Below, one piece after another: positions 9,671 to 35,247 of a DNA stretch of 64,000 bases. Position 1 is the stretch's first letter, and each line of letters starts with the position of its first letter. The stretch comes from Owenia fusiformis. Taxonomy: Eukaryota; Annelida; Polychaeta; Sabellida; Oweniidae. Under the pieces are notes generated by a model, which searched no databases, was not told where the DNA came from, and saw only the letters and a list, made by a program, of their open reading frames with translations. The stretch lies in assembly GCA_903813345.2 (NCBI GenBank), contig CAIIXF020000008.1, forward strand, positions 35,674,867 through 35,738,866. Direction: 5' to 3'. Both the position numbers and the translations under genes were made by a program.

Positions 9671-11050
9671 AAATTAGTACCATGGGTACTGGGCTCACAT
9701 GGTGACAGAAAAAACGGATATAATTTTTTGCTGATTTTTTGTAACAAAATTATTTCAAGCCACTTGCCACTATTTTGGACTGACGGAGAGACAGATGGAC
9801 AAATCGATGTTAAGTAAAATTGCTGAAAAAAAACAGATATAATTTTTTTTCAATTATTTGGAACAAAATTATTTCATACAACTACTCTTTACAGTGACAT
9901 GGCTTTTTGCAATGCAAGACACCTGAAATTATTTGTAAAGCTAGGAAATGGGCCAAAATTGAATTTCGCAAGGCAAAAATGACGACCATTTTGAAATCAG
10001 GCAAGCTTTTGAACCAGGAGTCAAAGGGGAGTTTTTTTGTATTGATGTTGAACAAAAATAACGTGAAACTGGAATCTTATCGACAGAGGTTTTAAGTAAA
10101 TGGTCCAAAAGAGGATTTCGTGAGACAGATGGACAAATCAATGTTAACTAAAATGGCTGAAAATAAAAAAACAGATATAATATTTTGCCGATTTTTTGTA
10201 ACAAAATTATTTCATACAACTACTCTTTACAATGACATGGCTTTTTACAATGCAGGACAGCTGAAATTATTTGTAAAGCTAGGAAATGGGCAAAAAGTGA
10301 ATTTCGCGAAACAAGAATGGCGACCATTTTGAAAATAGGCGAGCTTTTGAACCAAGAGTCATAGGAGAGTTTTTTGTATTGATGTTGAACAAAATTAACT
10401 TAAAACGAGAATCCTATCGACAGAGGGTTTAAGGTAAATGGTCCAAAAGTGGATTTTGCGAGACAGATGGACAAATCAATGTTAACTAAAATGGCTGAAA
10501 ATAAAAAAAATGGATATAATTTTTCGCTGATTTTTTGTAACAATATTATAACATATATCTACCCTTTACATTGACATGGATTTTTACAGTGTAGGACACC
10601 TGAAATTATTTGTAAAGCTAGGAAATGGGTCAAAAGTGAATTTCACGAGACAAAAGTGACGGCCATTTTAAAAATAGGCGAGCTTTTGAACCAGGAATCA
10701 TAGGGGAGTTGTCTGTATTGATTTTGAACAGAAATAACTTAAAACAGGAATCCTATCGACAGAGGTTTTAAAGGAAATGGGTCAAAAGTGAATTTCGCGA
10801 GACAAAAGTGACGGCCATTTTGAAAATAGGCGAGCTTTTGAACCAGGAGTCATAGGGGAGTTTTCAGTATTGATCTTGAACAGAAATAACTTAAAACAGG
10901 AATCCTATCGACAGAGGTTTTAAAACGTGCCACTATTGTTGAAGGACGGACGGACAGACAGACAGACAGACGGACAGACAGACAGACGGACGGACGGACG
11001 GACAGACAGACGGACAAGTGAGTGATTGCAAAAGCTCACCATGTGAGCTA
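9671..11050. mobile_element. Non-autonomous element interrupting the 73-bp array
   Basis: The array breaks at gtcagaaa and resumes at taaaacacacgtg. The insert has inverted ends (gctcacatggtga near 9690, tcaccatgtgagct near 11038), about four internal units of roughly 330 bp (each with aaaatggctgaaaat, attatttgtaaagctagg and cctatcgacagagg) and a gacggacagaca microsatellite at about 10945-11013. The layout matches a compound non-autonomous repeat with a variable internal array. The small open frames inside look like repeat sequence rather than genes. Confidence 0.7.
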
Positions 11051-11425
11051 ATAAAACACACGTGTCATCCAACTCAGAAATATAGAATTTGTGCTATGTA
11101 ACACTCATTATATGAAGTCAGAAATAAAACACATGTGTCATCCAACTCAGAAATATAGAATTTGTGCTATGCAACACTCATTATATGAAGTCAGAAATAA
11201 AGCACATGTGTCATCCAACTCAGAAATATAGAATTTGTGCTATGCAACACTCATTATATGAAGTCAGAAATAAAGCACATGTGTCATCCAACTCAGGAAT
11301 ATAGAATTTGTGCTATATAACACTCATTATATGAAGTCAGAAATAAAACACATGTGTCATCCAACTCAGGAATATAGAGTTTGTGCTATGTAACACTCAT
11401 TATATGAAGTCAGAAATAAAGCACA
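11051..11425. repeat. 73-bp minisatellite, distal part
   Basis: About five further units of the array at 8025-9670, split off by the inserted element. Confidence 0.9.
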
Positions 11426-12550: not shown

Positions 12551-13390
12551 GTAAGCAATAACAGTCATGTAATACATGTGTGGGTGGGGGGGGGGGCTGA
12601 AAATCAGGACAATGAATATATCACAGATCTCTTCATGATTTTTATTTCAACCGGGTATGAATGTCTTGGTTCGAAAAGGATCATGCACAGGGACGTAGTC
12701 TTGTTACAGCCATCTATGGTAAAGCTCTAATTATAAATTTTTTGATATTGGCTATTTTTTCTCCTTTTCATGTATTAAGCATTTTTACAAGTAACTATTT
12801 CACCAAAGTTAGTATTTACCAAAAATTCTTTTGAAATTGTGCAACTTTTCACCATTCTGACCAATTTTCAAGTGATTTTGGGCCAAAATCAAATATGAAC
12901 CCCCTAGAATTTCTTAAAACGTGAACCCCTTAGCAAAAGATGGCTATGGGCCTGGAGAACTACAAAGGAAGAAATAATATATTCAGAATGACTTTGTAGC
13001 ATTAACTTTAAACAGCTGAGTTGCACAAACTGTCTGGTTCTAATGAATTGAATTTAGAAAACAAGTTTTTCAAAAGTTGTAAAGAGGGCAGCACTATAGT
13101 CAGATAATATGCTGGCTAATTCTGTTTTCTCACATAAAATTTGAGATAATTTCTCAGTGTTTCTCAAATACTGATGATGAACTGTTTATTTCTCTTCAAA
13201 TTTTGTTCTCTAAGGTAGTTGACTTTTTTAATGAATAAATGTTATTTGAAATAACTTAAATACCAGTTAAAAGGATTAGGTGCAACTTTTATTAATATCA
13301 TATAACATCTAAAATGAGGAGGTATCTAATAAAATATGCAAACTGTATGTTGTACATGAGGGTCACCTTATTGATTTCAATATGTTCCAG

Positions 13391-14825
13391 AGGGTGCTGG
13401 TCTTCATCATGTGTGTAACATTCATAATGATGATAAGCTACACTACTTATCCAACAGATAAGCCTACAATTTCTTGGACAATAAAACCACAAGCACCACC
13501 ACTAAAAGCGACAAGTGTTCCAGTGAAAGCAGTAGAAGATCCAGAGAACAAATTATATAATGCTAACAATAATTTACAAAATAATGTCGTAGAAATTATT
13601 GCACAACATATTAAGGAAAAGATGAAGAACAAAGATAATATAATAAAAGCTACAACAATGAAAGCAGTAGAAGATCCAGAGAATAAATTATATGATGCTT
13701 CAAATAAACTACAAAATAATGTCATGGAAATAAGCACACCACCTTTAAAGATGCAGAACAAAGCTGATAAACTCAAAGCTAGAACAGTGAAGGCAGTAGA
13801 AGATCAAAAGAGTAAATTGTATAATGCTACAAATAAACTACAAAATAATGTCATGGAAATAAGCACACCACCTACAAAGATGAAGAACAAAGCTGATAAA
13901 CGCAAAGCTAAAATAGTGAAGGCAGTACAAGATCAAAAGAATAAATTATATGAAGCTTCAAATAAACTACAAAATAATGTCATGGAAATTAACGCACCAC
14001 ATATAAAGATAAAAATGAAGAACAGAAATGGAAATGATAAACTAAAAGTTACAACAGTAAAAGCAATGGAAGGACCAAAGAATGAAATATATAATGCTAC
14101 AAATAAACTACAAAAAATTGCCATGAAAATGAAGAAAAAAACAAATGGTAAAATAAAAAATAATTCTGCCCATAACATGACAGGAAGCCAGCTATTAAAT
14201 ATTACAAAGGAAGCAATCTCAGATCACAATCCAAATGAAACTGTTAATATTAAGAACAAAAATGAAGAAATCAAAATTCTCATATGGACTACATATTATT
14301 CAAAAATATTAGACTTTGGAGAAGACGCTTCCAATTGTTCAGTAAAGCTCTGTAGTTTCCACTATGATAAATCTAAAATAGGGATAGAATCAAGTGACGC
14401 AGTCTTATTTCATTTATGGGGCAGTGACTTAAGGACTGATGACACCATACCCCAGATTCGATTCTCATGGCAGAACTACATATTTTTCTCAATGGAAAAT
14501 CCAAAGAGGGATTACTTCACAAAAGAACTGAATTTGACCCAGTTAGACAGTTTCTTCAACCTCACTATAACATACAAAACAGACTCTGATGTACCTCTGT
14601 GGTATGGCAGATACATTCCAAGAAGCTCAAAACGAACCAGTATGAGGAATTACTATAAGGAGAATAGACTTAATGAAACAGATAATAAAGATGCAACAAT
14701 TCTATGGATTGCGAGTCATTGTAATACAGTGAATGATCGTTTGCGGTTTGTAAAGGAGTTACAGAAATATATAGCCATCGATATATTTGGAAAATGTGGA
14801 AAGCCTTGCAAACGTGGCACAAAAT
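13391..14825 (+). CDS. Alpha-1,3-fucosyltransferase variant A, exon 2 (anchor, stem, N-terminal GT10 domain)
   Basis: An open exon of 1435 nt from acceptor atgttccag to donor GTAAGT, ending in phase 1. In order: membrane anchor RVLVFIMCVTFIMMISY, a long stem with five repeats of 43-47 residues, then the GT10 N-terminal domain: EIKILIWTTYY, SSDAVLFHLWG, SWQNYIFFSMENP, LDSFFNLTITY, SDVPLWYGRY, ATILWIASHCNTVNDR, VKELQKYIAIDIFGKCGKPC. GT10 enzymes transfer fucose from GDP-fucose to GlcNAc on glycans in the Golgi; this half binds mainly the acceptor. No C-terminal exon lies nearby; splicing to 34814 (phase match, TGT split codon) would give about 630 residues. The ATG at 13382 lies before the AG and is probably intronic. 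Confidence 0.88.
13520..14146 (+). repeat. Five-unit coding repeat in the stem of variant A
   Basis: Units start near 13526, 13661, 13790, 13919 and 14060. Each carries KAVEDxxxKLYNA, NKLQNNVMEI and a basic linker such as KADKxKA. Variant C has one related unit (VYNATYELQRNLNGI) and variant B none, so stem length was set by in-frame tandem duplication. All five units remain open. Confidence 0.85.
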
Positions 14826-16652
14826 GTAAGTCATTTATACAAATTTTATTTACTATTACATGTAGTTGTAGAACATTGATATACAGGGTGTCCATAAAGT
14901 CTCTTTACAATTGCAATACAAAATCAGCATAAAGTGTAATGACTTAAGAGGGTGGTTTCCTAAAGCCGATGGACGAGTGCGCATCATTCTCGCGCATCTA
15001 ACTTTCGGTTTCGGTTTCGATGCCGTGATTTTGTTATTTTAATGTATATTACTCAAATAAATAAAACTTATGTTCAAAATGAATGAAAATGGCTTTATAA
15101 TATTTATTTGTGGTGAGAGAATTAGTTGCACGGGAAAATAAGACATTCTATTGTCGTAATTTTTGAACGTCTCTGAAACTCCTCACCAATTATCGCCCAC
15201 CTAGAAACAAGATGCTGCACTGATGACGGGACGATTTCAGTCTCAATCGGGCAAACAGTGGAGAATCGTAGCATTAAACATCATAACAACTGTTTATGAA
15301 GGTAAGAAGTATCGAATTCAATATCATTTTCCTTTTGTAATCGATCAAAATCACCATATTTAAAGGTAGAAATCGCTTCCTGGTTCTCGATCGGGAATTG
15401 TCATTTGCGTAATATTGATTTGAAAATTCTCACGAAATTTAGTATTTAATGTAATAATTTGGTATGTTAATAGTAGATGGTAGTGTTATATATAAATACA
15501 ATGGATTATTCTGTGATCGTATGCATATAATCACTGAAATTCTTCTAAAATTACATAAGAATTTATTTTGGGTGATCGATTCGTCATGACCTTGATTTTA
15601 CAAAGCAAACTCAACAGGTCCCAGAGACCTCCCATGCGGGCAGAGTCGGGACATCTTAAATGAAATGTTAACTATATTTGACTGCCTATCACAGTAAAAG
15701 TACATTTTGATGTGGGCAAAAAGATAATTTTGTAATGGAAAATTACATGTACATGTTTCGTGTACATGTATTAAAAGTGTCCTGTGCGGGAGTACATGGC
15801 AATCACATGCAGTTATCATAATCTGACAATAAATATTTGGGCACGGATAGTCCAACAACATTAGACCTAGCCTGGGGCCTGGTTTCTTATCTGACATGTC
15901 TTATGGCCCGGCGTTGAACTAGGGTACGGATAAACATGCTACACGTACTGTACATGTGCTGTACTGCAGTATAGTCAAAACTGTACATTATATGAATAAT
16001 GTTTACTGTATCGGTATTAGATATCATAGAACATCATATGACGTCTCAAGTTTCATTTTATTCTTGATATACTTTCAAACTTTTCCATGTATTTCAGATG
16101 ACAAGTTACCCAAAACAACAAACAACGGTTTTATGGACCACTAACAGTTGCGTCAAAATGATTGGGAGGTTGAGGAAGTTATTATGATTAATGATAAATG
16201 ATCATGCAATGCAGTTAGATCCTTTAGATGACTGTCACGTCATTGTCGACATAGGCCATACATACTTGTCCAGTCAAATGACTTGGAAGTTTTTGAGTAC
16301 AGGTAATTGTATAAATGACATGTAATATATTGTTCAAGTCATATAGATAGATGTTATATCACCTTTGCCTGTGTAGGCAATGACTTCAGAATACAATAAA
16401 TGAATAGACATTAAGGCAATCATTATATGATAATCATGACACTTTTTGACAGGTGTTACTCAATTCCCATCCGATTGAGCCCAGATCACAATATGCCTCA
16501 AAATATCATGTTTCTGGCTAAACAGAAAGATGCAATGAGTATCAAAATGGCATGGATACTTTGATGTATGGTATCAAGTGATCTTTCCAGCTGGTACTAA
16601 AATAACTTCAAGTCTAGTTGTTTTTGTAATAAATAGATTATATACAAGGTGG
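14826..16652. other. Intron after variant A exon 2
   Basis: Begins with the donor GTAAGTC. At 14882 a transposon end (tacagggtgtccataaag) is followed at 14941 by ttaagagggtggtttcc, which resembles the inverted end at 19945-19977. No second fucosyltransferase C-terminal exon was found on either strand. The minus-strand open frame near 15.6-15.9 kb has no recognisable protein. Confidence 0.5.
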
Positions 16653-17205
16653 GCCAAAAAATCCATTGTAACTTTTAGTCATGTATTATCTTCAATACTT
16701 TAGGAAATTGAAAAAATAATTCATTGTCAATATTGTGTAAATAAAATTATTGAATATACAAGCTCAAGCTTTAATTACTCACTTCAAGGATTTCCTGAAC
16801 ACATCCTCTCTAACCACCTGAACAATCAGTCTGAGACATATTATGCCAGTTTTGAAAAAAAGCTGAGGTCAGTAAGCTATATTATCCAAGGGAGAGATGG
16901 TTAACTTCTAGAGATAACAACATATGTTTTAATTGATGAAAAGTGTGGTGAGACCATTTGGAGGGCACATATTGTATGTTAAAAAGATGATTTCATCAGT
17001 GATGGCTCAAGCTGAGAAAATTTGAAATTCGTCATGACACATGTCTGCATGTAGAATACAGATCATGATCAATTGACAAGCCAAAAATAAATACATACAC
17101 ATTTTTACAGTTTACAGTTATCTGAATTTTTGTTGATTGAGCTGCAATAATAAAGAAAATTGAAGAAATGGAAAAATTTTCTAATTGTTATTGGCCCACC
17201 CTGTA
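16653..17205. mobile_element. TA-flanked MITE, mariner-type ends
   Basis: The ends are tacaaggtgggccaaaaaat and attggcccaccctgta. The termini resemble those of the mariner-like element at 33468-34587. No transposase remains. Confidence 0.65.
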
Positions 17206-17381
17206 GATATGTAAATTTACAACATATTAATTTATGTTCTGCAGGCCTTGTCTCCAAAGATGTCTTGGGTGCCCAGAAAGTTGGCTTCAGTGGATGTACG
17301 TTACACCTGACTAACAGTCATTTGACATTATACAAAATTAGCTAGAGGTACAGAATGTAAGAGGTAAGAGAACAAGTAATA

Positions 17382-17821
17382 TACAGTAAAATCTGTCCAA
17401 TCTGAACATCATTGAGAATGGTCAGAAAGCATTCGGATGGGGAGAAGTATTGATTTCGGTTTCTCTATCCGCAAGATTGTGGATTTTAACGCATTCTCAA
17501 TGAATATTAATATTTCTATTGACCATTTGGCTTCATGGCATCCAAAATCTGAGGCCATTTCATATTTTTCAGAATTTCATATCAAATCAGTCTTAAATTT
17601 AAAATATTTGAACAGTTTTGTAAAAATTGTGGAAAGTGTTCAATTAACACATGTTAAATTTTCAAATATGAGTGTCCACTGTTCGAATTAGGATGTTGTC
17701 AGATTTCAAGGTTTTTAACATGGGAGTCAAGGCAATGGGAGGAAAAATGGAGCCAGAAATTGTGTTAGCATTTGAAGGTATTTGGATCAGCCAGGTGTTC
17801 AGATATACAGGTTTTGCTGTA
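17382..17821. mobile_element. Element with TACAGTAAAACCTG-type ends
   Basis: The left end reads tacagtaaaatctgtcc and the right end reads acaggttttgctgta. Other copies are at 40741, 59464 and 63482. About 440 bp, no convincing ORF. Confidence 0.6.
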
Positions 17822-18426
17822 TGGGATTAACTCATTATTTTTATTATCAAAATAAGATTATAAGTAAAAGTTTGCATCTAATTAAGTAATGATAACCTTC
17901 TTGCCTAATTCAAAAAGAAAACTACACATAGGCCTTCATAATTTGGTCCTGATTACAATTTTAACACCATGATTGGAATTCCAATACTATGTAACTATAA
18001 ATTTGGATAATGTTATGCTTGAATGAAGTAACTGCATTCATATTTCTTTTATATCATAGTGATACATGCAATTTGTTACTTTTGTGTGATATTCAATTTC
18101 AGGTATGATCCACATTATTGGTCTTGGGGTATTCTTGTATGACTCAGCCCTCTTAGAGTGTATGTAAGCACATGCTACAGAAGGATATGACCAGTGAGGC
18201 AATAATGAGTTTGACAAACGAGTCCATGGCAGAAGTGGAACTTACTGAGCACATTGACTTTATTTAATTTTCTCTGTCTATCTTTGGATTTATGGTATTT
18301 ATGGCATTCATAATATAGACAATGGACACAGAACAAAAAGAACAGCATCTGTTTTAATGACAATATCTCTCAACAGCTCAAGAGAATATGTTCCCTGTAA
18401 CACCATTCCTAAACACATGTAGCTAT

Positions 18427-19977
18427 GTACAGGGTATCCATAAATCCATATTTACAAATACTTAATTATGAACTACAGAACACTTTATTCTTTTTCGGGA
18501 TTTTAAAAAAGTGGTATGTAGTTATTCTGATAAAAATAAATCTATATTTTATGCATATTTTGTCATGTACATGATTTTATTATACATGTCATGCCTATAG
18601 CCTGCTTTTGCTAAAAAAATCAAAAAATTCCAGGGGGTTCACATTTGACCATTTTGGCCCAAAAATGACAAAAATCACTTGAAAAATGCTCAGAATGGTG
18701 AACATTTTTGGCCAGGGGATTCACTCAAACCCAACGAACCACTGGCTATGGGCCTGCATGTACACAATGTAAATAGACATAACTATTGGTTGTCATAGCA
18801 ACAGATTATTGGGACAATGCCTAAGCTCATCAATAACAATATTCATTTGTTTTTAATAATAGTATTACAATGATGAAACTTTCCAAAAGAATAATATTGA
18901 TACTAAATGATCATGGAACTATAGCCAATTCGGGCAATTTAGACAATAAGGGACTGGACGTATTGGTTGGAAAGGGTGTATTGACTATATGCATTAATTA
19001 TGCTGTATTTTTACTTCAAAATAAACTTTATATTTTTCGGTGTCATTTTTGAAGAAAACTTTAACATAATAAAGTATTAGTTGGAAAGAACTCTAAATTG
19101 CTGTTCAGTATGGTGATTTTCTCATTGAAATACAAAATATACTCGTCTATTTAAAAATACAAAATAATTCAGTTATGACGTCACAATCAATATGCAAATG
19201 AGCTAATTTGCATAAATGTAAGTTTGAAAAATTGAGCTCTATTTTATCTTTAATATGATATAAATTTTATCAAAATCGAAGAAATATTGGGGGAGTTATG
19301 TGTAAAAAACACTTTCTTGTCATTATTTTTCTGGTTACTATGGAAACGAGCATTTGGGCACTTAAGGTCCACATTTCATAATTTTTAACAAGTGAATCCC
19401 AGAGGTAGCACTATGAGCTTTCCAACGGTACCAAATTTATCCATAGCCCTATGTCATAAGTGTACATTTATAATTGCTTTCCTGGCACTTTTGGGCCATC
19501 ATTTAGACTACCTACAATAGAAAGGGCAATTAACGGACATGTTAAGAGTGATTTTAATGTTTTGGGGGTATGGTTTTGATTTGGCTGTAGAAAAAAAATT
19601 AGCTCGGTGACCCCATATTTTTTTCGGGTCATTATTTTAACAATTGAACGAAGTTTAAATTAATGAAATATAAAAAAAAGTTATTGTTGGGAAATTACTA
19701 TTATTTAATGTTATTATAGGGGAGAAAATACATTATTTTTCCCATTGAAATACAATGAAAAGGTCAATTTAGGGGATATCTAAGAGTGATTTTTAGTGTT
19801 TTGGGTATGATTTTGTTTTGGCTGTAAAAAAAATTCGAGCACGGTGACCCTAATTTTTTTTGGTCTCATTTTTCTCAGAATTGAACAAAGTTTCACATAT
19901 AAAAAAATGAAAAATTTTTATTGTTGGCATCATTTACGCAACCACCCTCTTAAAGGACACCCTGTATAACAGTCACA
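18427..19977. mobile_element. Possible TIR element or two nested ends
   Basis: Starts tacagggtatccataaa and ends ttaaaggacaccctgta. The interior is AT-rich, with an inner element at 18591-18764 and two similar blocks (near 19540-19640 and 19760-19870) sharing gagtgatttt, tgttttggg and ggtgaccc. The pairing of these two ends is my inference. Confidence 0.35.
18591..18764. mobile_element. MITE, cc(t/g)atagcc family, 4-bp duplication
   Basis: Ends cctatagcctgc and actggctatgggcctg, flanked on both sides by catg. It shares ccagggggttcacatttgac and ttttggcc with the insert at 44321-44532 and a partial copy near 12890-12957. Confidence 0.6.
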
Positions 19978-20282: not shown

Positions 20283-20350
20283 TCCCATTTGCATTTACTT
20301 TCAAGATAGAACTCAACCACATGTTTACCCTGGTCCTGTATATAACCGTT
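20283..20350 (+). repeat. Solitary diverged unit of the fucosyltransferase splice-acceptor repeat
   Basis: Reads tactttcaagatagaactc then catgtttaccctggtcctg, clearly one unit of the arrays at 23.3-24.1 and 31.8-34.8 kb. It lies downstream of variant A, so A may once have had its own array or 3' exon. Confidence 0.7.
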
Positions 20351-21728: not shown

Positions 21729-22051
21729 GTAAGAAAACATATTTACAAAGGAGATTTTATTTATGAATAATGAACTGAATGTGAGAGGCTCATTCAGGGT
21801 GTACTAATTTGATGACCATATATGGTATGGGAAGTGATTTAAGACATCTCTGGCTACAAGAATATTCAGACAATAAATAAAGCATAGTGCTTAATTTTTT
21901 CTCATTAAGAAAACATAGGGACTTGCATTTAAGGAAACATATTCATGGTAATCTTAATTTAGACTTTATTTGACCAGCTTTCCAATGGTGGGGAAATGGA
22001 CAAGCTTTTTTGCTGCCAGAGTAGGGAATATCTATTTTTCTTATGTTCCAG

Positions 22052-22844
22052 AGTCTGTTCCTAATCTTTGTCTCGTGTGTAACATTCACTGTGATAATTG
22101 CACTGCTTCTATTAGCCAACTCTGTGACTTTCTGGCCAGTAAAACCACTCCAAGCTCCACATATAAGGAAGAAGTATGACATGGACAAAACTCAAGCTCT
22201 TCAAGCACCACATGAAACTCAAGCACTGATGGAACTGGGAAATCAAGGTCAGTTTAACTCTGCAGCTAAGAAAGATAGAGAAATCAAAATTCTCATATGG
22301 ACTAATTTTTTCGGTATGAGATATTATATCGATGCAGAACCAGCACTGAATGCGTCCAATTGTTCTATAAAGCACTGTAGTTTCCACTATAATAAATCTA
22401 AAGCAGGGATAGCATCAAGTGACGCAGTCTTTTTTCATCTGTGGGGCGATGACTTTAGGATTGGTAGTCCCATACCTCAGATTCGTTTCTCTTGGCAGAA
22501 CTACATATTTTTCTCAATGGAAAATCCAACATGGTTTCACTTCACAACAAAAGTAAAATATTTGGATGGTTTCTTCAACTTAACAGCAACATACAAACAA
22601 AATTCAGATGTGCCTTTGTTATATGGCAAATACTTCCCACGAGATACGTCAAAACCAACCAATCTGAAGAATTATTACATGGAAAACAAACGCAATAGAA
22701 CAGATAAAGATGCCAGTGTTCTCTGGGTTGTAAGTAACTGTAAAACAGTTAATAACCGGATGCAGTTTGTAAAGAAGTTACAGAAATATATAGCCATTGA
22801 TGTATTTGGAAAATGTGGAAAACCTTGCAAACGTGGCACAAAAT
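22052..22844 (+). CDS. Alpha-1,3-fucosyltransferase variant B, exon 2
   Basis: 793 nt from acceptor to donor GTAAGT, phase 1 out. It starts with a strong anchor (SLFLIFVSCVTFTVII, ALLLLANSV), then a short stem (IRKKYDMDKTQ) and the GT10 N-terminal domain: EIKILIWTNFF, SSDAVFFHLWG, SWQNYIFFSMENPTW, LDGFFNLTATYKQNSD, SVLWVVSNCKTVNNR, LQKYIAIDVFGKCG. Intact, and much closer to C than to A. Spliced to 34814 it would give about 419 residues, normal for the family. An array of acceptor-like repeats lies about 500 bp downstream where its own last exon would be expected. Confidence 0.9.
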
Positions 22845-23339
22845 GTAAGTTAATACATGTATAAATATATAATACATATCTGAGTAATATTGGCAGAGTT
22901 CAGATTCATCTCAAAATATTTGAGTAGCACCTTTCCTCAAAATATTCCATTTTTCCAATGGAGGTGGCCCATTAATTACCAATACATGGCCTTGAATCAA
23001 ATGTCTTTTCCTCAAGTTATCTTTTATTTGGCATCAACTCTTACCTGGTCAGTTCGCATAGAACTAAAATACCCATCGCTGACAAGTGAAATCGGCTTAT
23101 GACAGTTTTCTTATTTTTTTTCATGTTTTAGCGAATGTAAACAAAGGCAGTTGGGTTGCTACAGCTTTTTAACTTTTTTTCCACAGATACATATTTGTTG
23201 TCTGTAAAAATACATTAATTTCCCAAGAGAATGAGCTATCCGAACTTGCTGTGAAACATAATCTCAATTTTCAATAAGTCACAAATTTTACTGAAAGATC
23301 AGTTATAATCAATGTAAGCACATTGAGCATTAAGGATCG
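22845..23339. other. Intron after variant B exon 2
   Basis: Closely similar to the sequence after variant C (31318-31816): both carry tctgagtaatattggcagag and acatttcat/acattaat blocks. This shows B and C arose by duplication including the intron. Confidence 0.7.
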
Positions 23340-24110
23340 ATCATACACACAGGGTGTTTATCCTGGTCCTGTACATAACTGTCTTATACTTTCAGGTAGA
23401 GCTCATCCATACATGTTTACCCTGGTCCTGTACACAACTGTCTTATACTTTCAGGTAGAGCTCATCCATACATGTTTACCCTGGTCCTGTACACAACTGT
23501 CTAATACTTCCAGGTAGAGCTCATCCATACATGTTTACCCTGGTCCTGTACACAACTGTCTATACTTCCAGGTAGAGCTCATCCATACATGTTTACCCTG
23601 GTCCTGTACACAACTGTCTATACTTCCAGGTAGAGCTCATCCATACATGTTTACCCTGGTCCTGTACACAACTGTCTATACTTCCACGTAGAGCTCATCC
23701 ATACATGTTTACCCTGGTCCTGTACATAACTGTCTTATACTTTCAGGTAGAGCTCATCCATACATGTTTACCCTGGTCCTGTACACAACTGTCTTATACT
23801 TCCAGGTAGAGCTCATCCATACATGTTTACCCTGGTCCTGTACACAACTGTCTTATACTTTCAGGTAGAGCTCATCCATACATGTTTACCCTGGTCCTGT
23901 ACACAACTGTCTTATACTTTCAGGTAGAGCTCATCCATACATGTTTACCCTGGTCCTGTACACAACTGTCTATACTTTCAGGTAGAGCTCATCCATATAT
24001 GTTTACCCTGGTCCTGTACATAACAGTCTATATTACAAGATAGAGCTCATCCAAATATTTCTACCAGTTCCTGTACATAACTGTTTATATTATAAGGCAG
24101 AGCTCATACA
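23340..24110 (+). repeat. Splice-acceptor minisatellite, array 1 (about 13 units)
   Basis: Units of about 57-61 bp, each with cctgtaca.aactgtctta, tactttcag, gtagagctcatcca and catgtttaccctgg. The unit matches the intron end and first ~40 bases of the constant fucosyltransferase exon at 34814, so each carries a potential branch region, pyrimidine stretch and AG. Confidence 0.9.
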
Positions 24111-25048
24111 TATGTATTCCTCAAAAATGTTAATGACCAGTCTTTTTCCTTTTAGGTTTACAGTGTTTTCAGTAGGTTTGTCCAAAAGTGCGTCCCTGGG
24201 AAGCAATTTCCTATTGTCTTAAAATTAATAACCAGGTGATCCCACTTGACCAATAGAAAATGCTTTAGCTAACAGCCAATCATAGTACTCAGGTCTATCG
24301 AGTACTGTAGCTGCTAATTGAGTACTACATGCCTTGTACTATTTCGATCGGAAATCAACTTCCGGGAAGGAATATTCGAAAGAAAATTTTATTCATTTTG
24401 ATTGAGTGGATTTTGACTAAATAAAGAGACTGGACGTAAGATCTTTATCAATATATTCATCCAAAGTTTTTTTGCACATGACTTGCACTGCGTCAACGGG
24501 ACACAGTGATTTTCTATTTCCACATCCATCATCATTTTCTTGCACATTTGTAAAGTTGGAGCAGTGTTATTGAAAACATAGCGTTTACATGTCAAACCCT
24601 GTGTATGTTTGAACTCTATTTTCTAAGCCCGGAATGAAAGAAAAACTGATTATGTAAATTGACGTAAAACATAATAAAAAAAGCAACGCATCTTTTAAGC
24701 GTAGTCACTAGCTCGTTACATTCTTTGTTAATTCAACAGTATTACTGAAATGTTGAAGTTGAAGTTGACTTTACTAAAACTAATGTGTTCCTCTTAAATG
24801 ATCATACATAATAGATAAAAAAAATGCATGAGTCTGTAACATTGCGTCTTCATTTAATGTTTATCAACAGATTTGAGGTACCTTCATCGTTAATGTAGCA
24901 ACCATAACTCAAGCATATAAATTGGAAAACAAATATTACAAATATACATGCAAGAATAAAGTTTTATGTTACTCGAAACGAACATAAAACAGTGGAAGGA
25001 AGTGAACATATTATACTAGTTATTGATGAAAGAACTTAGGTCCTAACT
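24111..25048. other. Region between array 1 and variant C
   Basis: No remnant of a C-terminal fucosyltransferase exon is visible after array 1. The last 100 bp are similar to the region before variant B. No other gene seen. Confidence 0.5.
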
Positions 25049-25081
25049 ATGAAGAATATGAACAACATCTCTTTCAAAAAG
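25049..25081 (+). CDS. Fucosyltransferase variant C, exon 1
   Basis: 33 nt reading MKNMNNISFKK with donor GTAAGA, phase 0, nearly identical to variant B exon 1. Its partner exon starts 4.5 kb downstream, the intron having been lengthened by inserted repeats. Confidence 0.75.
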
Positions 25082-25164
25082 GTAAGAAAACATTGATGCA
25101 AAGTAGATTTAATTATTTATATATAAAATGGACCGTATGTGAAGGGCTCATTTTAGAATGAAGT

Positions 25165-25878
25165 AAGGTGCATGTGCAGTATGGCAAGTGATTTTAGACG
25201 GTCATATCTTTTTTCACAAGTACTTTCTGGCCACAAATGGGGTGGTTTTTATTAAGACAATATGTTTTCTTTCAAGTGAAGTCACCATACTACCAAAATA
25301 TCAATCCAACTATCTGAAAAATTATGGTTTAGTACCCCACCTTGGCACTTTTTAAAAATTGTTTGGCTTATTTTCTAAAAGAGGATCTTGTTTTTCTCAA
25401 CTAAAACATACCGAAAGTTTCTTCTATACAATATTAACAATTTCTGTAAAGGGGATGGGTATTGAAATGCGTTAAAGTTAAAAAGCACATATTCCATGTT
25501 ATTTTCCCAAAGGAAAAACTCATGCTATCCAATGTTTTCAGTATGATTCTGGTCATCGAAGATTGATATCTTCAAAACCAAACTTTCATACCATTCTACT
25601 TTCAAAGAAGTTTTAGACCCTTTGTTGAATAATCTTTTCATGCAATAAAAATTAGAAAAAGAAGATCCTCTTTTGAGTAAATAAATTCAACATTTTGATA
25701 CAATTGTTGACAAAGGGTCTGTATTCATAATTCTTTGAATTGTTTGATTGATATTTTTACCATCATGGGTATTTCACTTGAAAGAAAACATATCGTCTTA
25801 ATAAAAACCACCGCAGAAAGTACTCATGGTGAAAGATATGATTGTTTAAAATCACTTGCCATATTGCACATGGACCTT
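25165..25878. repeat. Fold-back repeat in variant C intron 1
   Basis: About 115-bp arms, aaggtgcatgtgcagtatgg on the left and ccatattgcacatggacctt on the right. They share ttttcttt.aagtga and gtggtttttattaagac, with a hairpin-like AT-rich middle. Part of the left arm also exists after variant B exon 1, so this may not be a clean insertion. Confidence 0.6.
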
Positions 25879-27929
25879 TAAAGACAGAAGCCAAGATATG
25901 ATTTATCTTTGGCCATTTTTTAGTTTTTTTCTAAAACAAAACGTAGGGACTTCAATTTGAATTACATATTCCTAGTACTCAAAATTGAGACTTTATTTGA
26001 CCAGCTAATATCATTACTCCCATTGTTGGGGAATTGACAAACTAATTTGCTCCATAAGGGGACACACAACTTATTAATCCTTCCGCCGAGTGGGAAGACG
26101 AATAGATGGCACTTTAAAAACAATAGTCCAATTATTGTAATTATATTAGCATCACCAGTGGTTGGATTTTGGTAAGTACATGAATGAAAAAGTGTATGTA
26201 TGGACCAACTCTAACACATGATTTAATGTGATTGAGATGCATTTTCTTTAAGAAATTTGACCCTTTTGACCTGCCTCCATCTGTCAAAGTCGAGCATGAT
26301 ATATATATTTTATTTGTTAAATTGAAAATGAGACTGTCTGTCTGTCTGTATTTTTTTGGTTTAAATAAAAACGACATAATTATTTCACCTTCATTTAACA
26401 TCTGTGTCGTTCTTCAGGATTTGATGTGTAATTATTTTTTTTATCGTCTTTATCACTGGTGTTCTCCAGGGTTACACTAATTGTCACGCCTATTTTGATT
26501 CATGATCATTTTATATTTATTTTGATTCATGATCTTATTGGCAATAGAATTTGGGTGTATGAGCATACATAAATATACAGGCTGGATGAAGATGAAATGG
26601 GTGATGGTGATGTGTTGGGTGCACTCTCTATGGCAGCCCCTCACTAAGACTGAAAAGGGAAATTTTTATTATTTTTCCTAATTGATTCAAAAACTTTGGA
26701 AGTGCATAGAAATCACTGAATAACATTGTACTCTGTGCACCCTCATACCAGATAAAAGTGGAATTAATTAGTTTTTGATTTTTTATTATCTCAAACACAA
26801 AAAAGTGTCAAGAAACTATCAAATACTACCCCTCCGAAAACAATTGAATAAATTCAATTCTGAATTTTATTCTACTGTTTCTTACACTTAAAGTATTGGT
26901 AAAAAGATCTAAGAAGTATCACCATAAATAAGCTATAAATCCAATGTATGTAGTTTCGAATTTTCTATAAAATGTAACTTAACATGATGATATCATCATA
27001 TATTTTGAACAATGATGATATCCCCATGTTATATCAATGGAGACAAATAAAAATAAAAACAGAAGATGTGAACTTTGTAAAGCTTAACCTCCCTTCCAAG
27101 GTCAATGCCAAGGATTGTCTAAGTATTATTCTACAATGATTTTGTAAATTAGATCCCTGCTGAAATCTCAAATTTATAAAAAACCATTAAGTTGTATGGT
27201 GCTCAACAAATTTAGAAATAGTCAATGATGTAATTATAACTAATATAGACTAATTTAAATCGTAAGTCTTTAACAATAAATTTAAAAAAAATTAAACAGT
27301 GTTTAATGAGTTATATCACACACTGTGAGTTTGGAGTCTATTTTGGTGTTATTTTTCAGTTGAAATTGTACAAAATGTTCTTGATGTCAAAGAATTTATG
27401 AAATTTTTAATTACTTATTTATTATCTATTCAAAAGAAATTTTTAAATATAAAATATTCTTTTGAAAAATGACCCCTGCGTTATCCCACATAAATAATAA
27501 ACAGTAATGTTGTGTGATGCTAAAACAAGCAAAAATAAAAAATATCCCAGTGATCTCGCCAGAATTTTTTTTCAACTGGGTGCAACATTTTTCAAGGCTG
27601 AAAAAATGATATGACTTGTCGATATCTTCACTAGCACTGTTAATTTATGCATGTCACATTTGTGCACAATATAAGAAATATGCAATTCACATTCTTTCAT
27701 TCAATCAGCAAGCATACTAGAACTATCGTTGTAATCAAACTGTTTGATTTTCTGCATTACAACTTGCTAGTGGACTGGCAGGCAATTACTTATTTTCTTT
27801 CATTCTCTTGCCTAATTTCATTGACAAAGTAAACTTAAAGACACATATTGGTTCCAATGGGAGCTTAAACTCTATTTATAGTTAATTTTCCATGACCATG
27901 AAAAAACAAAACGAAAAACTAGTACAAGC
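25879..27929. other. Variant C intron 1, middle
   Basis: The first 170 bp match variant B intron 1 (actttatttgaccagct, ttggggaa). The rest is AT-rich with no gene seen. Confidence 0.5.
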
Positions 27930-29215
27930 CTGGAGGCCATTTCTCGAAACTTTCGTTATTAACAAATAGTTAATTCAATTGTTGTTAAAGATTTTTCTGT
28001 TTCTCAAAAGATAATGATTTGCGATAACGTCATGATTTTTAACGATTTGTTTATTATCCATGACTGATTTAACGATAAGGTTAGGGGGGTCTCGTAATAT
28101 AACAAATTATGGCTCATTATACACATTTCATATGATGATTAAACAAGAAAATACTGCCTTTATATAATATATAATACAATTATTCCTGCATTATTTGACA
28201 CATTGAGTGAGAATATTTGTTGAAAATCTTTCCAAATATAAGGATGAAATGGAAGGTTTGTGAATGGGCTGGGTGTTTGTTGTCACACCACCCGAGCAGT
28301 TTAAAATTTGGATGTGACTTTAAAGGCCAGTTTTAAAGTTGCTCGTCACTCTCATTAAAATATCAGGTTACACCCACACTTTAACATGGCACAGATAGTC
28401 AGGATTAGTAAGTTTAATTAACATCATTGCTAAAAACTTGATTTTGATTGGCACAGCTTGAGGACTTTTAAATTTGAAAAATGTTATCAGTGTTTTTAAA
28501 TGTCCTATCACAATCCAACAAAATGATGAAGTTGAAATCTAACTGCAGAATATGAACTTAAAAACATTGAAAGATACACATAACAATCAATTGGAATCAA
28601 TAATCTTTTCAATCAATATGAATTGTGCGAAAATCGACCAGCTTTGTGAAAATATCAAAAATACAGTTATTTTGGCTGTTCCATTTGTCTGTCTCCTATT
28701 TATACCCGATTTCCCTCTTTAATGTGACTAACAATGATATGGACAGTAAACTGTTCATCAGATCGAAAATCATAGTTGGTTTGTTTCTGAAGTGTATAAC
28801 AAGGACACTTTTTCCGGGAAAAAGGTTTAATTTTACATATGAATAGTAGCGTCAGGGTCAGAGGGGCCCAAGCCTACACGCTATTATTCTTGCTCCTAAA
28901 ATCATTTTGTCAGTTTCACGAGCATATTTGATTTCATGTGTACATTAATGTATGAAGCTAAATTAACATTAACAGTTTGATGGAAAACAACAGCACTTGT
29001 CATTGAGAAAAACCAGAATAAAACAAAGCAGGTCACTAAGGAAATATCAAAAAATAACCCACGTCATAACTAATTAGGTGCCAAATATAACGATTTGCTC
29101 ACTAACGAGATTATTTGAGAAACAAAATTTGCACATTTCGTTAATCAGTCGTTAATTTTACTATTTGCTATTAACGAATCATTAATAACAAAACGTTTCG
29201 AGAAACGGCCTCCTG
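27930..29215. mobile_element. 1.29-kb TIR element, ctggaggccatttctcg
   Basis: The left end ctggaggccatttctcgaaa and right end tttcgagaaacggcctcctg form a long imperfect inverted repeat that continues into gttattaa/ttaataac. The internal open frame has no recognisable domain. Superfamily unknown. Confidence 0.75.
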
Positions 29216-29605
29216 TATCTGTCAATTTCAATTCAGACTTATACTTTCTAAAGTAGGTGAGTTTATGTTCTTTTAATCTGATTATGTCTTGAATTTTTTT
29301 GAAAATCTTTTTTTGAACAGGGGGCAAATTTTCAACTAGGCACCAACTAGGCAGGGTTTTGGGTCTAACTAGGTGCACCGCTCGGTTAAAAGATCTGATG
29401 AGATCACAGATAATTATAATAATAATATTGCTAATTACAAAGAATCGAAAGTTCATTTTTGTTCCATATGAATGACTTTTAATTAAGTAATCTTTTATTG
29501 TAATAAAATAAATATTCATGCAATGAACAGATAAAAGCTAGGCAAAGAAGATCCTTTAAACACCTCAAGGATAATATCTCTAAAAACTATTTTCTTGTGT
29601 TTCAG

Positions 29606-30458
29606 ACTTTGTTCCTAATCCTTGTCTCCTGTGTTGCATTCACAGTGACAATTGCACTGCTTCTATTAGCCAACTCTGTGACTTTCTGGCCAGTAAAACC
29701 ACTCCAAGGTCCACATATAAGGAAGAAGTATGACATGGACAAAACTCAATCTCCTTTTGACGAAACTCAAGCCCTGAAGGTACTAAGAAATCGAGGGTAT
29801 CATGTGTATAATGCTACTTATGAACTGCAAAGAAATCTTAATGGAATTCAGAAAACAAAATCCAAGAAAACTGAGCCTTATAAGAAAGATAGAAAAATCA
29901 AAATTCTCATATGGACTACATTTTTTAGAAAGAGATATTATGTCAAAGGAGAACGGATACTGAAAGATTCTAACTGTTCTATAAAGCACTGTAATGTCCA
30001 CTATGACAAGTCCGAAGCAGGGATAGCATCAAGTGATGCAGTATTATTCCATCTATGGGGCAGGGACTTTAAGATTGGTGATCCCATACCCAAGATTCGC
30101 TACTCTTGGCAGAACTACATATTTTTCTCAATGGAAAATCCAACATGGATTCACTTCACAACAAAAGTAAAATATTTGGATGGTTTCTTCAATTTAACAG
30201 CAACATACAAACAAAACTCAGATGTGCCTTTGGCATATGGCAAATACTTCCCACGAGATATGTCAAAACCAACCAATCTGAAGAATTACTACATGGAAAA
30301 TAGGCGAAAAAGAAAAGATAAAGATGCCATTATTCTCTGGGTTGTAAGTAATTGTAAAACAGTTAATAACCGGATGCAATTTGTAAAGAAGTTACAGAAA
30401 CATATCGCCATTGATATATTTGGAAGATGTGGAAAACCTTGCAAACGACACACAAAAT
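29606..30458 (+). CDS. Alpha-1,3-fucosyltransferase variant C, exon 2
   Basis: 853 nt from acceptor ttgtgtttcag to donor GTAAGT, phase 1 out. Anchor TLFLILVSCVAFTVTIA, a stem with one repeat-like unit (VYNATYELQRNLNGI), then GT10 motifs: KIKILIWTTFFRKRYY, SSDAVLFHLWG, SWQNYIFFSMENPTW, LDGFFNLTATY, AIILWVVSNCKTVNNR, LQKHIAIDIFGRCG. The base corresponding to B's apparent ATG is GTG here, which supports the view that the exon begins after the AG and takes its start from exon 1. Joined to 34814 it would be about 439 residues. It is the variant nearest the constant exon. Confidence 0.9.
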
Positions 30459-30484
30459 GTAAGTTAATACGTAACATGTATAGA

Positions 30485-31317
30485 TAGCCTTGCCCAAGTC
30501 GGTCTCTTTTACTTATCTTGATTTCTATTATGACCACCTTGTACCCAAGAGAAAGCCACATGCTTTACCGACCTAATGTTTATGTCGGTAAAATTTGACC
30601 AATCAACGACAGCTCTGACGCGTTAGCTCATTATTATGCACGGTCAAAAACAAGTACACTTTTCGACGGGACTTTTCACCAGCTTTACACGAATAAATCT
30701 TCCACGAATTCATCATGAAAGTATACAAATGTTTTATCAGATGAATATCAATCAGAGATTAGTGGATGCCAGAGCATCGATCAGATACCCGGAGGTGAGA
30801 AGATTTCAATAAGAAACGTTGAAATAATCGCTGAATGATCGAACACTTAGGCTGAGATGCAATTACTTAATCAAGTCCGTGATCAGATCTACATGGCTAG
30901 GTCTTTGTGCATTTTCATCGCGAATTCAGTTTTAAATCAACATTGATTTGCATGATTTAATTTATAATAATGACTGCTTACATTAATAATTACATAATTA
31001 AATATACATGTATTGTAATTCTAAAGAAACACTTGGTCAGATCATTGAATTTCAAGTCGTAGACGGGTAGTTTGCTTTGTTTATGCAGGTCAACCTGATA
31101 ACATTTTGATTGGTCAATCAGCCTGAAGTCACGCGTCGTGTACATGCGATCTTGTTAATCAATAAGGTTTCGCGATACCCCTGACAGCGTAGGTATTATG
31201 GAAATCTAGAAACCGCTGAATAACTAAAGCATAATATCAGCAGAGATCTATTGGATTGTGCAAGGCAGTAATAATTCAAGATCAGATAAGTAAAAAATAC
31301 CGACTTGGGCAAGGCTA
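30485..31317. mobile_element. 833-bp TIR element with 9-bp target duplication
   Basis: Ends tagccttgcccaagtcggt and taccgacttgggcaaggcta, flanked on both sides by atgtataga (30476-30484 and 31318-31326). A 9-bp duplication is typical of Mutator-like elements. It splits the intron that variant B retains uninterrupted, so it inserted after the B/C duplication. Confidence 0.85.
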
Positions 31318-31816
31318 ATGTATAGATAATTAATACATATCTGAGTAATATTGGCAGAGTTCCGATTCATCTCAAAATATTCGAATAGCACCTTTCCACA
31401 AAATATTCCATTTTTCTAGTGGAGGCGGCCCATTAATTATTAATATATGGCCTTGAATCAAATGTCTTTCCTCAAGTTATCTTTTGTTATGTTATCATCG
31501 CCACAAACCTGGTCAGTACGCGTAGAACCAAAATACCCATCGCTGACATGTGTAATTGGCTAATGACAATTTTCTTATTATTTTCATGTTTTAGCGAATG
31601 TAAACAACGGCAGTTGTGTCGCTAAGGCTTTTTAACTCTTTTTTCCACAGATACGTATTTGTTGTCTGTAAAAATACATTTCATTTCCCTAGAGAATGCG
31701 CTATCCGAACTTGTTGTGAAACATAATCTCAATTTTAAGTAGAATAAGGTCACAAATTTTACTGAAGAGATCAGTTATAATCCTTAGTAATGTAAGCACA
31801 TTGAGTAATAAGGATC

Positions 31817-32778
31817 GATCATACACACAGGGTGTTTACCCTGGGCCTGTACATAACTGTAAATACTTTCAGGTAAAGCTCATCCATATATATTTACCCT
31901 GGTTCTGTACAAAACTGTCTATACTTTCGAGTAGAGCTCATCCATGTGTGTTTACCCTGGTCATGTACATAACTGTCTATACTTTCAGGTAGAGCTCTTC
32001 CATATATGTTTACCCTGGTCATGTACATAACTGTCTATACTTTCAGGTAGAGCTCATCCATATATGTTTATCCTGGTCCTGTACACAACTATCTATACTT
32101 TCAGGTAGAGCTCATCCATATATGTTTATCCTGGTCCTGTTCACAACTATCTATACTTTCAGGTAGAGCTCATCCATATGTTTACCCTGGCCCTGTACAC
32201 AACTATCTATACTTTCAGGTAGAGCTCATCCATATATGTTTATCCTGGTCCTGTACACAACTGTCTATACTTTGAGGTAGAGCTCATCCATATATGTTTA
32301 CCCTGGCCCTGTACACAACTGTCTATACTTTCAGGTAGAGCTCATCCATATATGTTTATCCTGGTCCTGTCACAACTATCTATACTTTCAGGTAGAGCTC
32401 ATCCATATGTTTACCCTGGCCCTGTACACAACTATCTATACTTTCAGGTAGAGCTCATCCATATATGTTTATCCTGGTCCTGTACACAACTGCCTATACT
32501 TTCAGGTAGAGCTCATCCATATATGTTTACCCTGGCCCTATATACAACTGTCTATACTTTCAGGTAGAGCTCATCCATATATGTTTATCCTGGTCCTGTA
32601 CACAACTATCTATACTTTCAGGTAGAGCTCATCCATATATGTTTACCCTGGCCCTGTACACAACTGTCTATACTTTCAGGTAGAGCTCATCCATATATGT
32701 TTATCCTGTTCCTGTACAGTATATACTTTTTAAAATAGACTAAAAGTATCTAAAAGTTTTAGGTACAGCTCATCCATA
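31817..32778 (+). repeat. Splice-acceptor minisatellite, array 2 (about 16 units)
   Basis: Same unit as array 1, with tatactttcag, gtagagctcatcca and tatatgttta(t/c)cctgg. Some units are shortened by a few bases. In the frame set by the donors, a unit would read C-RAHPYMFTLALYT, against C-GTHSYMFYMALEN in the real exon. Confidence 0.92.
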
Positions 32779-33053
32779 TACAGGGTGTCCCGAAAGTATT
32801 GGGCCCCCCCCCCCTAGGCATACATATTCCAGTGTCCTCATAGTATGTGTCATATATCATTTTAAAGCTTATCCAAAGTTACATTGATATGCCAAGTATC
32901 ATGGTTTAACTCCCAAATGGGAAAAATTTACAGGCATTTCAAAATTTAGTGTTTGGTCAAAATTAAGTTCAATTTTACACCAAAACACTAGTCAATGTGT
33001 CCTCCTGGAATATGTCTGCCTAGGGGGGGGACATACTTTTGGGACACCCTGTA
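32779..33053. mobile_element. MITE, second copy of the 7212 family, inside the array
   Basis: Ends tacagggtgtcccgaaag and cttttgggacaccctgta, flanked by TA, cutting an array unit within ccatata/tatttaccc. Shorter internally than the copy at 7212. Confidence 0.85.
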
Positions 33054-33467
33054 TATTTACCCTGGTCCTGTACATAACTGTATATACTTTCAGGTAGAGC
33101 TCTTCCATATATGTTTACCCTGGTCCTGTACATAAGTGTTTATGCTTTCGGGTAGAGCTCTTCCATATATGTTTACCCTGGTCATGTACAAAACTGTTAA
33201 TACTTTCGGGTAGAGCTCTTCCATATATGTTTACCCTGGTCCTGTACATAACTGTATATACTTTCGGGTAGAGCTCTTCCATATATGTTTACCCTGGTCC
33301 TGTACATAAGTGTATATGCTTTCGAGTAGAGCTCTTCCATATATGTTTACCCTGGTCATGTACATTACTGTATATACTTTCAGGTAGAGCTCTTCCATAT
33401 ATGTTTACCCTGGTCCTGTACATAACTGTATATACTTTCAGGTAGAGCTCATCCATATACAGGGTGG
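33054..33467 (+). repeat. Splice-acceptor minisatellite, array 3 (about 7 units)
   Basis: Continuation of array 2 after the MITE, with a sub-variant gtagagctcttcca. Ends where the mariner-like element inserted. Confidence 0.9.
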
Positions 33468-34587
33468 GCCAAAAAAAAACCAATACCCAACTTTAAATCA
33501 GACTGAAAATAGCTATGTTCAATATGATACATTGATTTATATATCATTTTAAAGGTAATCCATTTTCGAACAATTTGGTATATAACACTATGTCATGAAA
33601 TCAATATTAAAGTTTTATTATGCTTATTTGGGAGGCTTGGTCGGTATTTATGGTATCCAGATTTTAGGGAGAAAATAGTAAATCTGCGGAATAATGTTAA
33701 TTTTTTATTTATAGAATATCATTTTGTTAGGTGAATAAATGCTTGTATATTTGCATATTGTGTGACTAAACTTATTGTTTATGAATTTTAGTGTTGTTTA
33801 TTATCAATAAGTACTCAAAGGGGGTCTGTTAAAAGACATTAAACGTATATATGACGAGAATTTTATTTTCCAACAAGATGTAGCCCCGTACCATAGATCT
33901 CAGGAGACATTGGCATTCCTTTGCAAACAAGGTGTCAATTTGATTGATCTCGATGCTTGGCCACCCAACAGCCCCGATGCTACATGTTATGTGTTTGATT
34001 ACCATACATGGAGCCATCTCGAGGAAATGGTACAATCAAAAGCATCCAATAAACAGCTTTGATGAGCTGAAACAGAATCCTAAAGTGCTGAAATGAATTG
34101 CAACAGAAATTTCTCAATAAGGCTATTGATAGATTGCGCTACCACTTGAAGCTTATTGTTGATGCATAGGGGAGGGGGTGGGGGTATATTGAGCAACTGT
34201 GAAAATTGTTTAAATAAATAAAGTGTAAAATGTTATCAAATAACACTGAAATTCATAAACAATAAATTAAGTCACACAATGATGCAAATATCAATATCCA
34301 AGCATGTATTCACCTAACAAAAGAATGATATTCTATAGATAAAAGATTAACATAATTCTGCAGATTTACTATTTTCTCCCTAAATTCTGGAGACCTTAAA
34401 TAGCGACCCAACCTCCCAAATAAGTATAATAAAACGTTACTATTGATTTCATGATGCAGTGTTATATACCAAATTGTTTGAGATTGTATGACCTTTAAAA
34501 TGGTATGTAAGTCAATGTACCATATTGAATGTAACTATTTTTATCCTGATTCGAAGTTGGGTATTGTTTTTTTTGGCCCACCCTGTA
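33468..34587. mobile_element. Mariner-like element with about 340-bp terminal inverted repeats
   Basis: The ends are tacagggtgggccaaaaaaa and ttttttggcccaccctgta, bordered by TA. The inverted arms extend about 340 bp on each side (shared ctattttctccctaaa / tttagggagaaaatag and aaacaataaattaagtcaca-like blocks), unusually long for this group. The centre has a transposase fragment. Confidence 0.85.
33868..34064 (+). pseudogene. Tc1/mariner transposase C-terminal fragment
   Basis: Reads FQQDVAPYHRSQETLAFLC, then DLDAWPPNSPDA, then DYHTWSHLEE. QQDxAPxHR and WPPxSPD are the second and third catalytic-aspartate regions of DDE/D mariner transposases. The N-terminal DNA-binding part and first aspartate are absent, so it cannot act alone. 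Confidence 0.85.
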
Positions 34588-34813
34588 TGTTTACCCTGGT
34601 CCTGTACATAACTGTATATACTTTCGGGTAGAGCTCTTCCTTATATGTTTACCCTGGTCATGTATATAATTGTCTATATTTTTAGGCAAAGCTCATCCAT
34701 ATGTGTTTACCATTGTCCTGTACATATCTTTCTTTACTTTCTGGTAAAACTCAACTATATATGTTTCTGTATATAATTTACAGGGCTCTGTATATAATGA
34801 TCTATACTTTCAG
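34588..34813 (+). repeat. Last units of the minisatellite grading into the real acceptor
   Basis: Three diverged units (at about 34620, 34680, 34740) followed by tgatctatactttcag, the functional-looking acceptor of the constant exon. The real splice site is the terminal member of the array. Confidence 0.85.
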
Positions 34814-35247
34814 GTGGAACTCACTCGTATATGTTTTACATGGCCCTGGAAAATGCTGACTGCAAAGACTACATCACAGAAAAACTTTGGCATAATTCAT
34901 TTGGGGCAAACTTAATTCCTGTAGTACAAGGATCTAAAGTTGAATATAGCAAACATCTCCCACCAAATTCATTCATTCATGTAGATACCTTCAACTCCGT
35001 AAAAGACTTGGCTATGTACATCACTAAAGTATCACATAATGAAACGCTTTATAATTCTTATTTTAAATGGAAGGAACTTTATCAGTCAACATACAATGGA
35101 GGTTTACGAAATCCTGACAACTTTTGTAAACTATGCACAGTGCTACATGAACGAAGACAGAATACTTCCTTTAACAAGGAATACAAGATCAGCTCTTGGT
35201 TTGATTGGAAGAATCAATGTGCCAGAAGAGTAAAAGTTTTACATTGA
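34814..35247 (+). CDS. Fucosyltransferase constant exon (C-terminal GDP-fucose domain)
   Basis: Begins after tatactttcag in phase 1; its first GT completes a TGT cysteine with the T left by any of the three upstream exon 2s. It encodes GTHSYMFYMALENADCKDY, ITEKLWHNSFGANLIPVVQG, then SFIHVDTFNSVKDLAMYI, YFKWKELY and FCKLCTVLHE, ending TGA. FYxALENxxCxDYITEKLW is the hallmark GT10 C-terminal motif that contacts GDP-fucose. No second copy of this exon was found in the window, so A, B and C either share it or A and B are broken. 144 codons including the split one, then the stop. Confidence 0.93.

Follow-up and report, generated by a model that had tools for sequence, protein, structure and literature searches.

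Results

A GT10 gene holding copies of its own 3' splice site

The window analysed here is a stretch of 64,000 nucleotides from the annelid Owenia fusiformis, and positions without a contig prefix refer to this stretch. It contains a gene of the GT10 (fucosyltransferase) family in which three 5' catalytic exons (A, B, and C) are followed by a single constant 3' exon, together with tandem arrays of a unit of ~58 bp. Each unit, with ~26 nt of intronic and ~32 nt of exonic sequence, copies the 3' splice site and exon start of the gene itself, as had been proposed in an earlier, sequence-only reading of this DNA. GT10 membership is given by the match to PF00852, whose cut-off is passed by the constant exon (E 9e-37) and by each of exons A, B, and C; fucosyl transfer activity is predicted. 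A single constant-exon match and three 5' exon matches were found in the window. The donor aaat/gtaagt is intact and common to the three 5' exons (aaaat/gtaagt at 14825/14826 in exon A). Over their shared catalytic part, exons A, B, and C have ratios of nonsynonymous to synonymous divergence (dN/dS) of 0.35-0.39 against each other, indicating purifying selection, and in the comparison of B with C, with counts rounded, ~25/114 synonymous and 42/468 nonsynonymous sites have changed (Fisher p 0.0003). Because of these ratios, our data suggest that exons A and B are in use; if used, they would need the constant exon, to which they are predicted to be joined.

The unit consensus was aligned with the boundary of the constant exon (34776-34860) and scored 51, whereas the maximum of 5,000 dinucleotide shuffles was 30. 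Among 85-base windows slid along both strands outside the arrays, the relic, and the boundary, the best of 5,964 scores was 24. The alignment spans the intron end, the AG, and the exon start, indicating that the repeat crosses the intron-exon boundary, and BLAST identity between the boundary and the units was about 70-84%. Tandem Repeats Finder (TRF) detected four arrays of head-to-tail units with a period of 58-59 bp, as in a minisatellite, with the extents listed in Table 1 (block C being delimited at 31833-32718) and with 13.0, 15.4, 7.0, and 3.1 copies. A scan by nhmmer with one unit gave 41 matches in the window, comprising 39 upstream units (13, 16, 7, and 3 in blocks B, C, D, and E), a relic behind exon A, and the true boundary (34789-34844). 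The count of about 39 copies in the sequence-only reading is thus reproduced, and so is its placement of the real acceptor as the last member of the array; between this true boundary unit and the last unit of block E stand ~13 irregular bases (34776-34788). Its description of 23340-34813 as one minisatellite holds in part: the arrays are real, but they form four blocks, one of which lies between exons B and C, with two inserted elements bounded by terminal inverted repeats (TIRs). If joined to the constant exon, the donor of exon C faces 19 AG-bearing decoys, that of exon B 31, and that of exon A 31 and the relic, in line with the expectation that upstream donors must pass many near-perfect decoys.

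Genome-wide distribution of the unit

The assembly searched comprises 498 Mb, and weak or common matches may escape the search. When units of the window and of a paralogue were used as DNA queries, matches were obtained only in the window and at C6:1622049-1622961, with its edges. At the latter locus, which is on another contig, a 14-unit array runs into a GT10 constant exon. All 37 matches to a 33-base pattern with up to 3 mismatches fell in the window arrays or in this C6 array, and the reversed control gave 0. The satellite and the exon are therefore linked within the sensitivity of the search: other copies unlinked to the exon were sought, and the only other array lies at a paralogue of the constant exon. 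By eye, two unit types alternate in part of the C6 array (L001 7550-8500), with a period of ~124 bp.

The true boundary, used as a query, led to four loci, namely the window, C6:1622k, C1:56274k, and C6:22005k. Degenerate units were seen by eye at two of them, about two at C1:56274k and one at C6:22005k. The four loci form one branch of a tree built from 22 constant exons (support 92/95; one change, in 95% of bootstrap trees). Synonymous divergence (dS) among the constant exons of these four paralogues ranges from 0.57 for the closest pair to 0.96 and beyond, where it is partly saturated. In addition, each locus was searched for copies of its own boundary in up to 600 bases upstream, a span that includes exon sequence where introns are short. 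Copies exceeding all 200 shuffles were present in all four unit-bearing loci (4/4), whereas none of the 17 other paralogues tested was positive in the 200-shuffle test. At L013 the own-boundary test gave 0/200 shuffles and the test with the unit consensus was not clean (3/200), and L016 and L019 gave 7/200 shuffles against their own boundaries. The sample consisted of 20 further regions and the C6 locus, drawn from split GT10 loci; C11:24118459 and C12:36421715 are among those left out. L022 was included in the tree and omitted from the acceptor matrix and the self-boundary test, as no acceptor was seen at that place by eye. Genome-wide, at least 98 PF00852 matches were counted exon by exon, a large GT10 expansion with single-exon and split genes.

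Acceptor strength and reading frames of the units

A splice matrix was trained on 17 paralogous acceptors of the same genome, from loci without units; it is rough, with self-scores of 8.6-19.1 and leave-one-out scores of 0.8-16.2. Over 30464-34820, the true site ranked 1st of 218 AGs (15.25) and ranks 2-18 were all taken by array units (14.67 to 9.59), with the best other AG at 9.35. Seventeen of the 19 AG-bearing units of the last intron thus stand directly below the true site, and the other two scored 6.83 and 2.31. Ten units of block B scored 10.75-12.4, and at C6 the last decoy (13.82) exceeded the true site (12.48). These results indicate that the unit carries a splice-site consensus.

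The AG was intact in 31 of the 39 window units and lost in 8 (Table 1). Losses cluster beside the constant exon, the AG being intact in 4/10 units of blocks D and E versus 27/29 of blocks B and C (p 0.001). Several of the losses in D and E share one change, so that they are not independent and are partly due to descent. Were a decoy to serve as the final acceptor and splicing to end there, a stop would follow within 77 codons for each of the 31 AG-bearing ones, and for 18/31 of them it would come after 20. Exonic use of units, which the sequence-only reading had considered, fares poorly in the last intron, where in-frame use is nearly excluded because only 3 of 153 simulated runs stay open; in-frame exonised units were rejected as a general explanation there.

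Constraint and history of the units

Acceptor-specific conservation was sought across the unit and not found: 8 of 47 twelve-base windows were more conserved than the acceptor window, and mean column identity over 53 units was 0.872 for the intronic and 0.884 for the exonic columns. Between the duplicated copies in blocks B and C, the unit distance was 0.115 versus 0.096 in the flanking intron, in keeping with neutral DNA; the distance table covers the units other than unit 32754 and the relic. The unit alignment (A1) holds 24 of the 39 window units, 6 of the 14 C6 units, three true boundaries, one unit of the C1 paralogue, and the relic.

The exon part of the units is no closer to its own exon than to that of the paralogue (0.320 vs 0.322 for the window; 0.381 vs 0.396 for the C6 paralogue). 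The intron part of the window units is nearer to its own boundary (0.223 vs 0.306), whereas in the C6 paralogue the reverse is the case (0.349 vs 0.283). In addition, at some bases the two unit consensuses (window and C6) agree with each other and not with either exon. Because of these shared bases and the lack of closeness to the own exon, the duplication most likely predates the separation of the window and C6 loci (constant-exon dS 0.57), and the array is most likely not being refreshed from the exon. The units at C1:56274k and C6:22005k would point to an even earlier origin, provided that the tree is correct.

Within block C, units four places apart are the most alike (identity 0.960 vs 0.917-0.943 for other lags), which points to multi-unit exchange; no lag peak was found in the same comparison of block B. 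A segmental duplication relates exons B and C and their surroundings (22036-24113 and 29590-32580, three pieces, 86-88%), and block B is part of it.

Inserted elements and neighbouring repeats

The array block nearest the constant exon is split by two TIR elements (Table 1). The larger has inverted arms with a perfect part of 22 nt and a part of 256 nt at 86%, and by eye it looks like a candidate mariner-like element. As the units flanking the two elements continue around the TA by eye, the array probably once reached the true acceptor without a break. By eye, the stretch 14883-19968, which lies between exon A and the relic unit behind it, carries sequences at its two ends (cagggtgtcc ... ggacaccctgta) that suggest one or more candidate TIR elements.

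The open frame of exon A includes a 129-bp tandem repeat (13521-14130, 4.6 copies) encoding repeats of ~43 residues that precede the catalytic part. In the open frame of exon C (29507-29600), no in-frame ATG was found between the upstream stop and a membrane-like segment. A possible acceptor, gtgtttcag, stands directly before ACTTTG, and this tttcag suggests a candidate upstream coding exon. Elsewhere in the window, a 73-bp satellite (8038-9670, 22 copies, and 11050-11425, 5 copies, ~95% alike) flanks a 339-bp repeat on both sides, and the 2 kb of the window with the most pronounced GC skew contain a 23-bp repeat of 48 copies (48798-49896).

Table 1 Exons, array blocks, and inserted elements of the GT10 locus (ORF, open reading frame)
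Feature	Positions	Strand	Evidence and remarks
5' catalytic exon A	13313-14825	+	ORF and PF00852 match; open frame, start not settled
Relic unit behind exon A	20290-20334	+	nhmmer E 0.0097, BLAST 5.8e-9; adjoins transposon-like insertion
5' catalytic exon B	22025-22844	+	ORF, PF00852, donor; start not settled
Array block B	23355-24112	+	TRF, nhmmer; 13 units, 12 with AG; between exons B and C
5' catalytic exon C	about 29592-30458	+	ORF, PF00852, donor; start uncertain
Array block C	31833-32781	+	TRF, nhmmer; 16 units including a degenerate last one, 15 with AG
Short TIR element, ~270 bp	32778-33054	.	inverted arms 32776-32809/33023-33056; inside array, at TA (by eye)
Array block D	33052-33459	+	TRF, nhmmer; 7 units, 3 with AG
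TIR element, ~1.1 kb	33457-34588	.	arms 33457-33478/34567-34588; inside array, at TA (by eye)
Array block E	34586-34766	+	TRF, nhmmer; 3 diverged units, 1 with AG
True boundary unit	34788-34847	+	acceptor ...ctatactttcag, AG 34812-34813, first constant-exon bases
Constant 3' exon	34814-35247	+	ORF; PF00852; terminal stop codon

Discussion

A single origin of the arrays by tandem duplication across the intron-exon boundary, followed by growth, is the best reading and is well supported, because the arrays are confined to related GT10 loci on one branch of the tree and no signal was obtained in the 17 other paralogues tested. In the ancestor of the four paralogous loci, tandem duplication, in the simplest case a single event, would have copied a segment of ~58 bp that runs from the final bases of the last intron into the first bases of the constant exon. 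Multi-unit exchange would then have enlarged the array to different extents, leaving one or two units at two loci, 14 at a third, and 39 and a relic in the window, where the array was copied together with the 5' exons. That the unit is an unrelated satellite or mobile repeat, resembling the boundary by chance, is next to impossible: no observation in favour of such an origin was made, it is contradicted by the shuffle and window controls and by the confinement to GT10 loci, and it was ruled out within the sensitivity of the genome searches. Ongoing gene conversion between exon and array, of which the array would be the record, had also been suggested. The sequence similarity and position, the block exchange inside block C, and the closeness of the window units' intron part to their own boundary speak for it, but the exon part shows no such closeness, the C6 intron part points the opposite way, and the bases shared by both unit consensuses are absent from both exons. 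With no consistent locus-specific resemblance, conversion was rejected and is very improbable.

As to what the array does, most units still have the appearance of a complete 3' splice site and would present a row of decoy acceptors. The spliceosome probably skips most of them, because only the last unit leads into a long, real exon, and some transcripts probably end at a decoy and are lost through an early stop codon. We favour, with a probability of roughly 0.6, decoys that are tolerated rather than selected and that would lead to some dead-end splicing. Several observations weigh against this preference or the single origin beneath it. The AG has been kept in 31/39 window units and in 14/14 units at C6, and the branch uniting the four loci falls just short of the strong-support mark of the tree program. 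Furthermore, the unit consensuses of the window and C6 differ at 8 of 58 positions, compared with ~33/81 synonymous sites of the constant exon (Fisher p 0.0006), and a divergence this low could mean constraint on the units; consensus sequences hide variation, however, and the mean unit-to-unit distance between the two loci, 0.255, is less striking.

The same low divergence would fit a selected splicing brake, in which decoys divert part of the transcripts to a truncated dead-end product, unit number sets the output of the enzyme, and, as a corollary, 5' exons facing more decoys are spliced less. Such a brake would also account for decoys that mostly score near the true site, for the early stop that follows all 31 AG-bearing ones, and for the persistence of units in four paralogues with a constant-exon dS of 0.57 to 0.96 and beyond. 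We nevertheless consider the brake and its corollary unlikely, since the acceptor bases are no more conserved than the rest of the unit, the AG has been lost in 6/10 units of the blocks beside the exon (in part by shared descent), the divergence of the units in B and C is not below that of the flanking intron, and copy number ranges from 1 to 39. It is equally doubtful, or slightly more so, that the array is a copy-number rheostat, in which 19 decoys for exon C and 31 or more for exons B and A would divert a set share of transcripts, favour the proximal 5' exon, and let unit number tune enzyme output between paralogues. A regulatory or timing role of some kind, as raised in the sequence-only reading, is possible. 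Ratchet (recursive) splicing, with units as stepping stones where splicing to a decoy regenerates a donor and the next step corrects it, ranks below the brake and is improbable. GT follows the AG in 28 of the 31 AG-bearing window decoys, and juxtaposed acceptor and donor sites are what known ratchet points consist of (PMC8605326). On the other hand, GT follows at 0/14 decoys of C6, so that ratcheting as a trait common to both arrays is not borne out, GTAGAG looks weak by eye as a donor beside the GTAAGT of the gene, and the same source states that intronic recursive splicing requires a cryptic exon at the ratchet point.

Dozens of junction copies ahead of the real one lend themselves to the question of how cells choose the correct splice site. 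Work on how the spliceosome selects between closely spaced 3' splice sites generally involves few competing sites. The GT10 paralogues, with no detectable unit, 1-2, 14, or 39 junction copies before the constant exon, form a graded natural series within one gene family, which could tell whether position, exon definition, or transcription order decides acceptor choice. The case also bears on whether a satellite can arise from a splice junction without harming the gene.

Literature searches for minisatellites made of acceptors found none in the open-access library searched, and the array relates to several known systems. UGT1A-type loci have several variable 5' exons and shared 3' exons; the locus described here is similar in its three 5' exons and one constant 3' exon, but it belongs to another enzyme family, and splicing of exons A and B to the constant exon is predicted. 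The human IFI6 (G1P3/6-16) minisatellite reportedly provides multiple splice donor sites (Nucleic Acids Res 1995, 23:1854; cited in PMC2572611). Turri is reported to have described it, with a 12-bp unit and with use of the sites in RNA. Both are tandem minisatellites in which the unit itself is a splice site at an exon edge, whereas the unit here has 58 bp and contains a predicted acceptor with flanking exon. In a potato RdRp gene, a tandem duplication across an intron-exon boundary made a new intron that was detected (PMC4974935). There, too, the duplicated segment crosses the 3' end of an intron into the next exon with branch site, pyrimidine tract, and AG, but it was a single duplication, in contrast to the dozens of copies described here, in an animal gene family, where any new intron is putative. 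The AG/GT of most window units resembles Drosophila ratchet points, which are described as well conserved and in need of a cryptic exon (PMC8605326); in the C6 array, GT is lacking in 14/14 units. Intronic variable number tandem repeats (VNTRs) have been linked to splicing in ABCA7 (PMC5954066) and TERT (VNTR6-1; PMC11830802); the present array shares this intronic setting, but its units derive from the splice junction of the gene itself, a derivation that the excerpts of those two reports do not state. Together, these comparisons suggest that the array joins known kinds, namely the donor minisatellite, the boundary duplication, and the ratchet points, in a new form.

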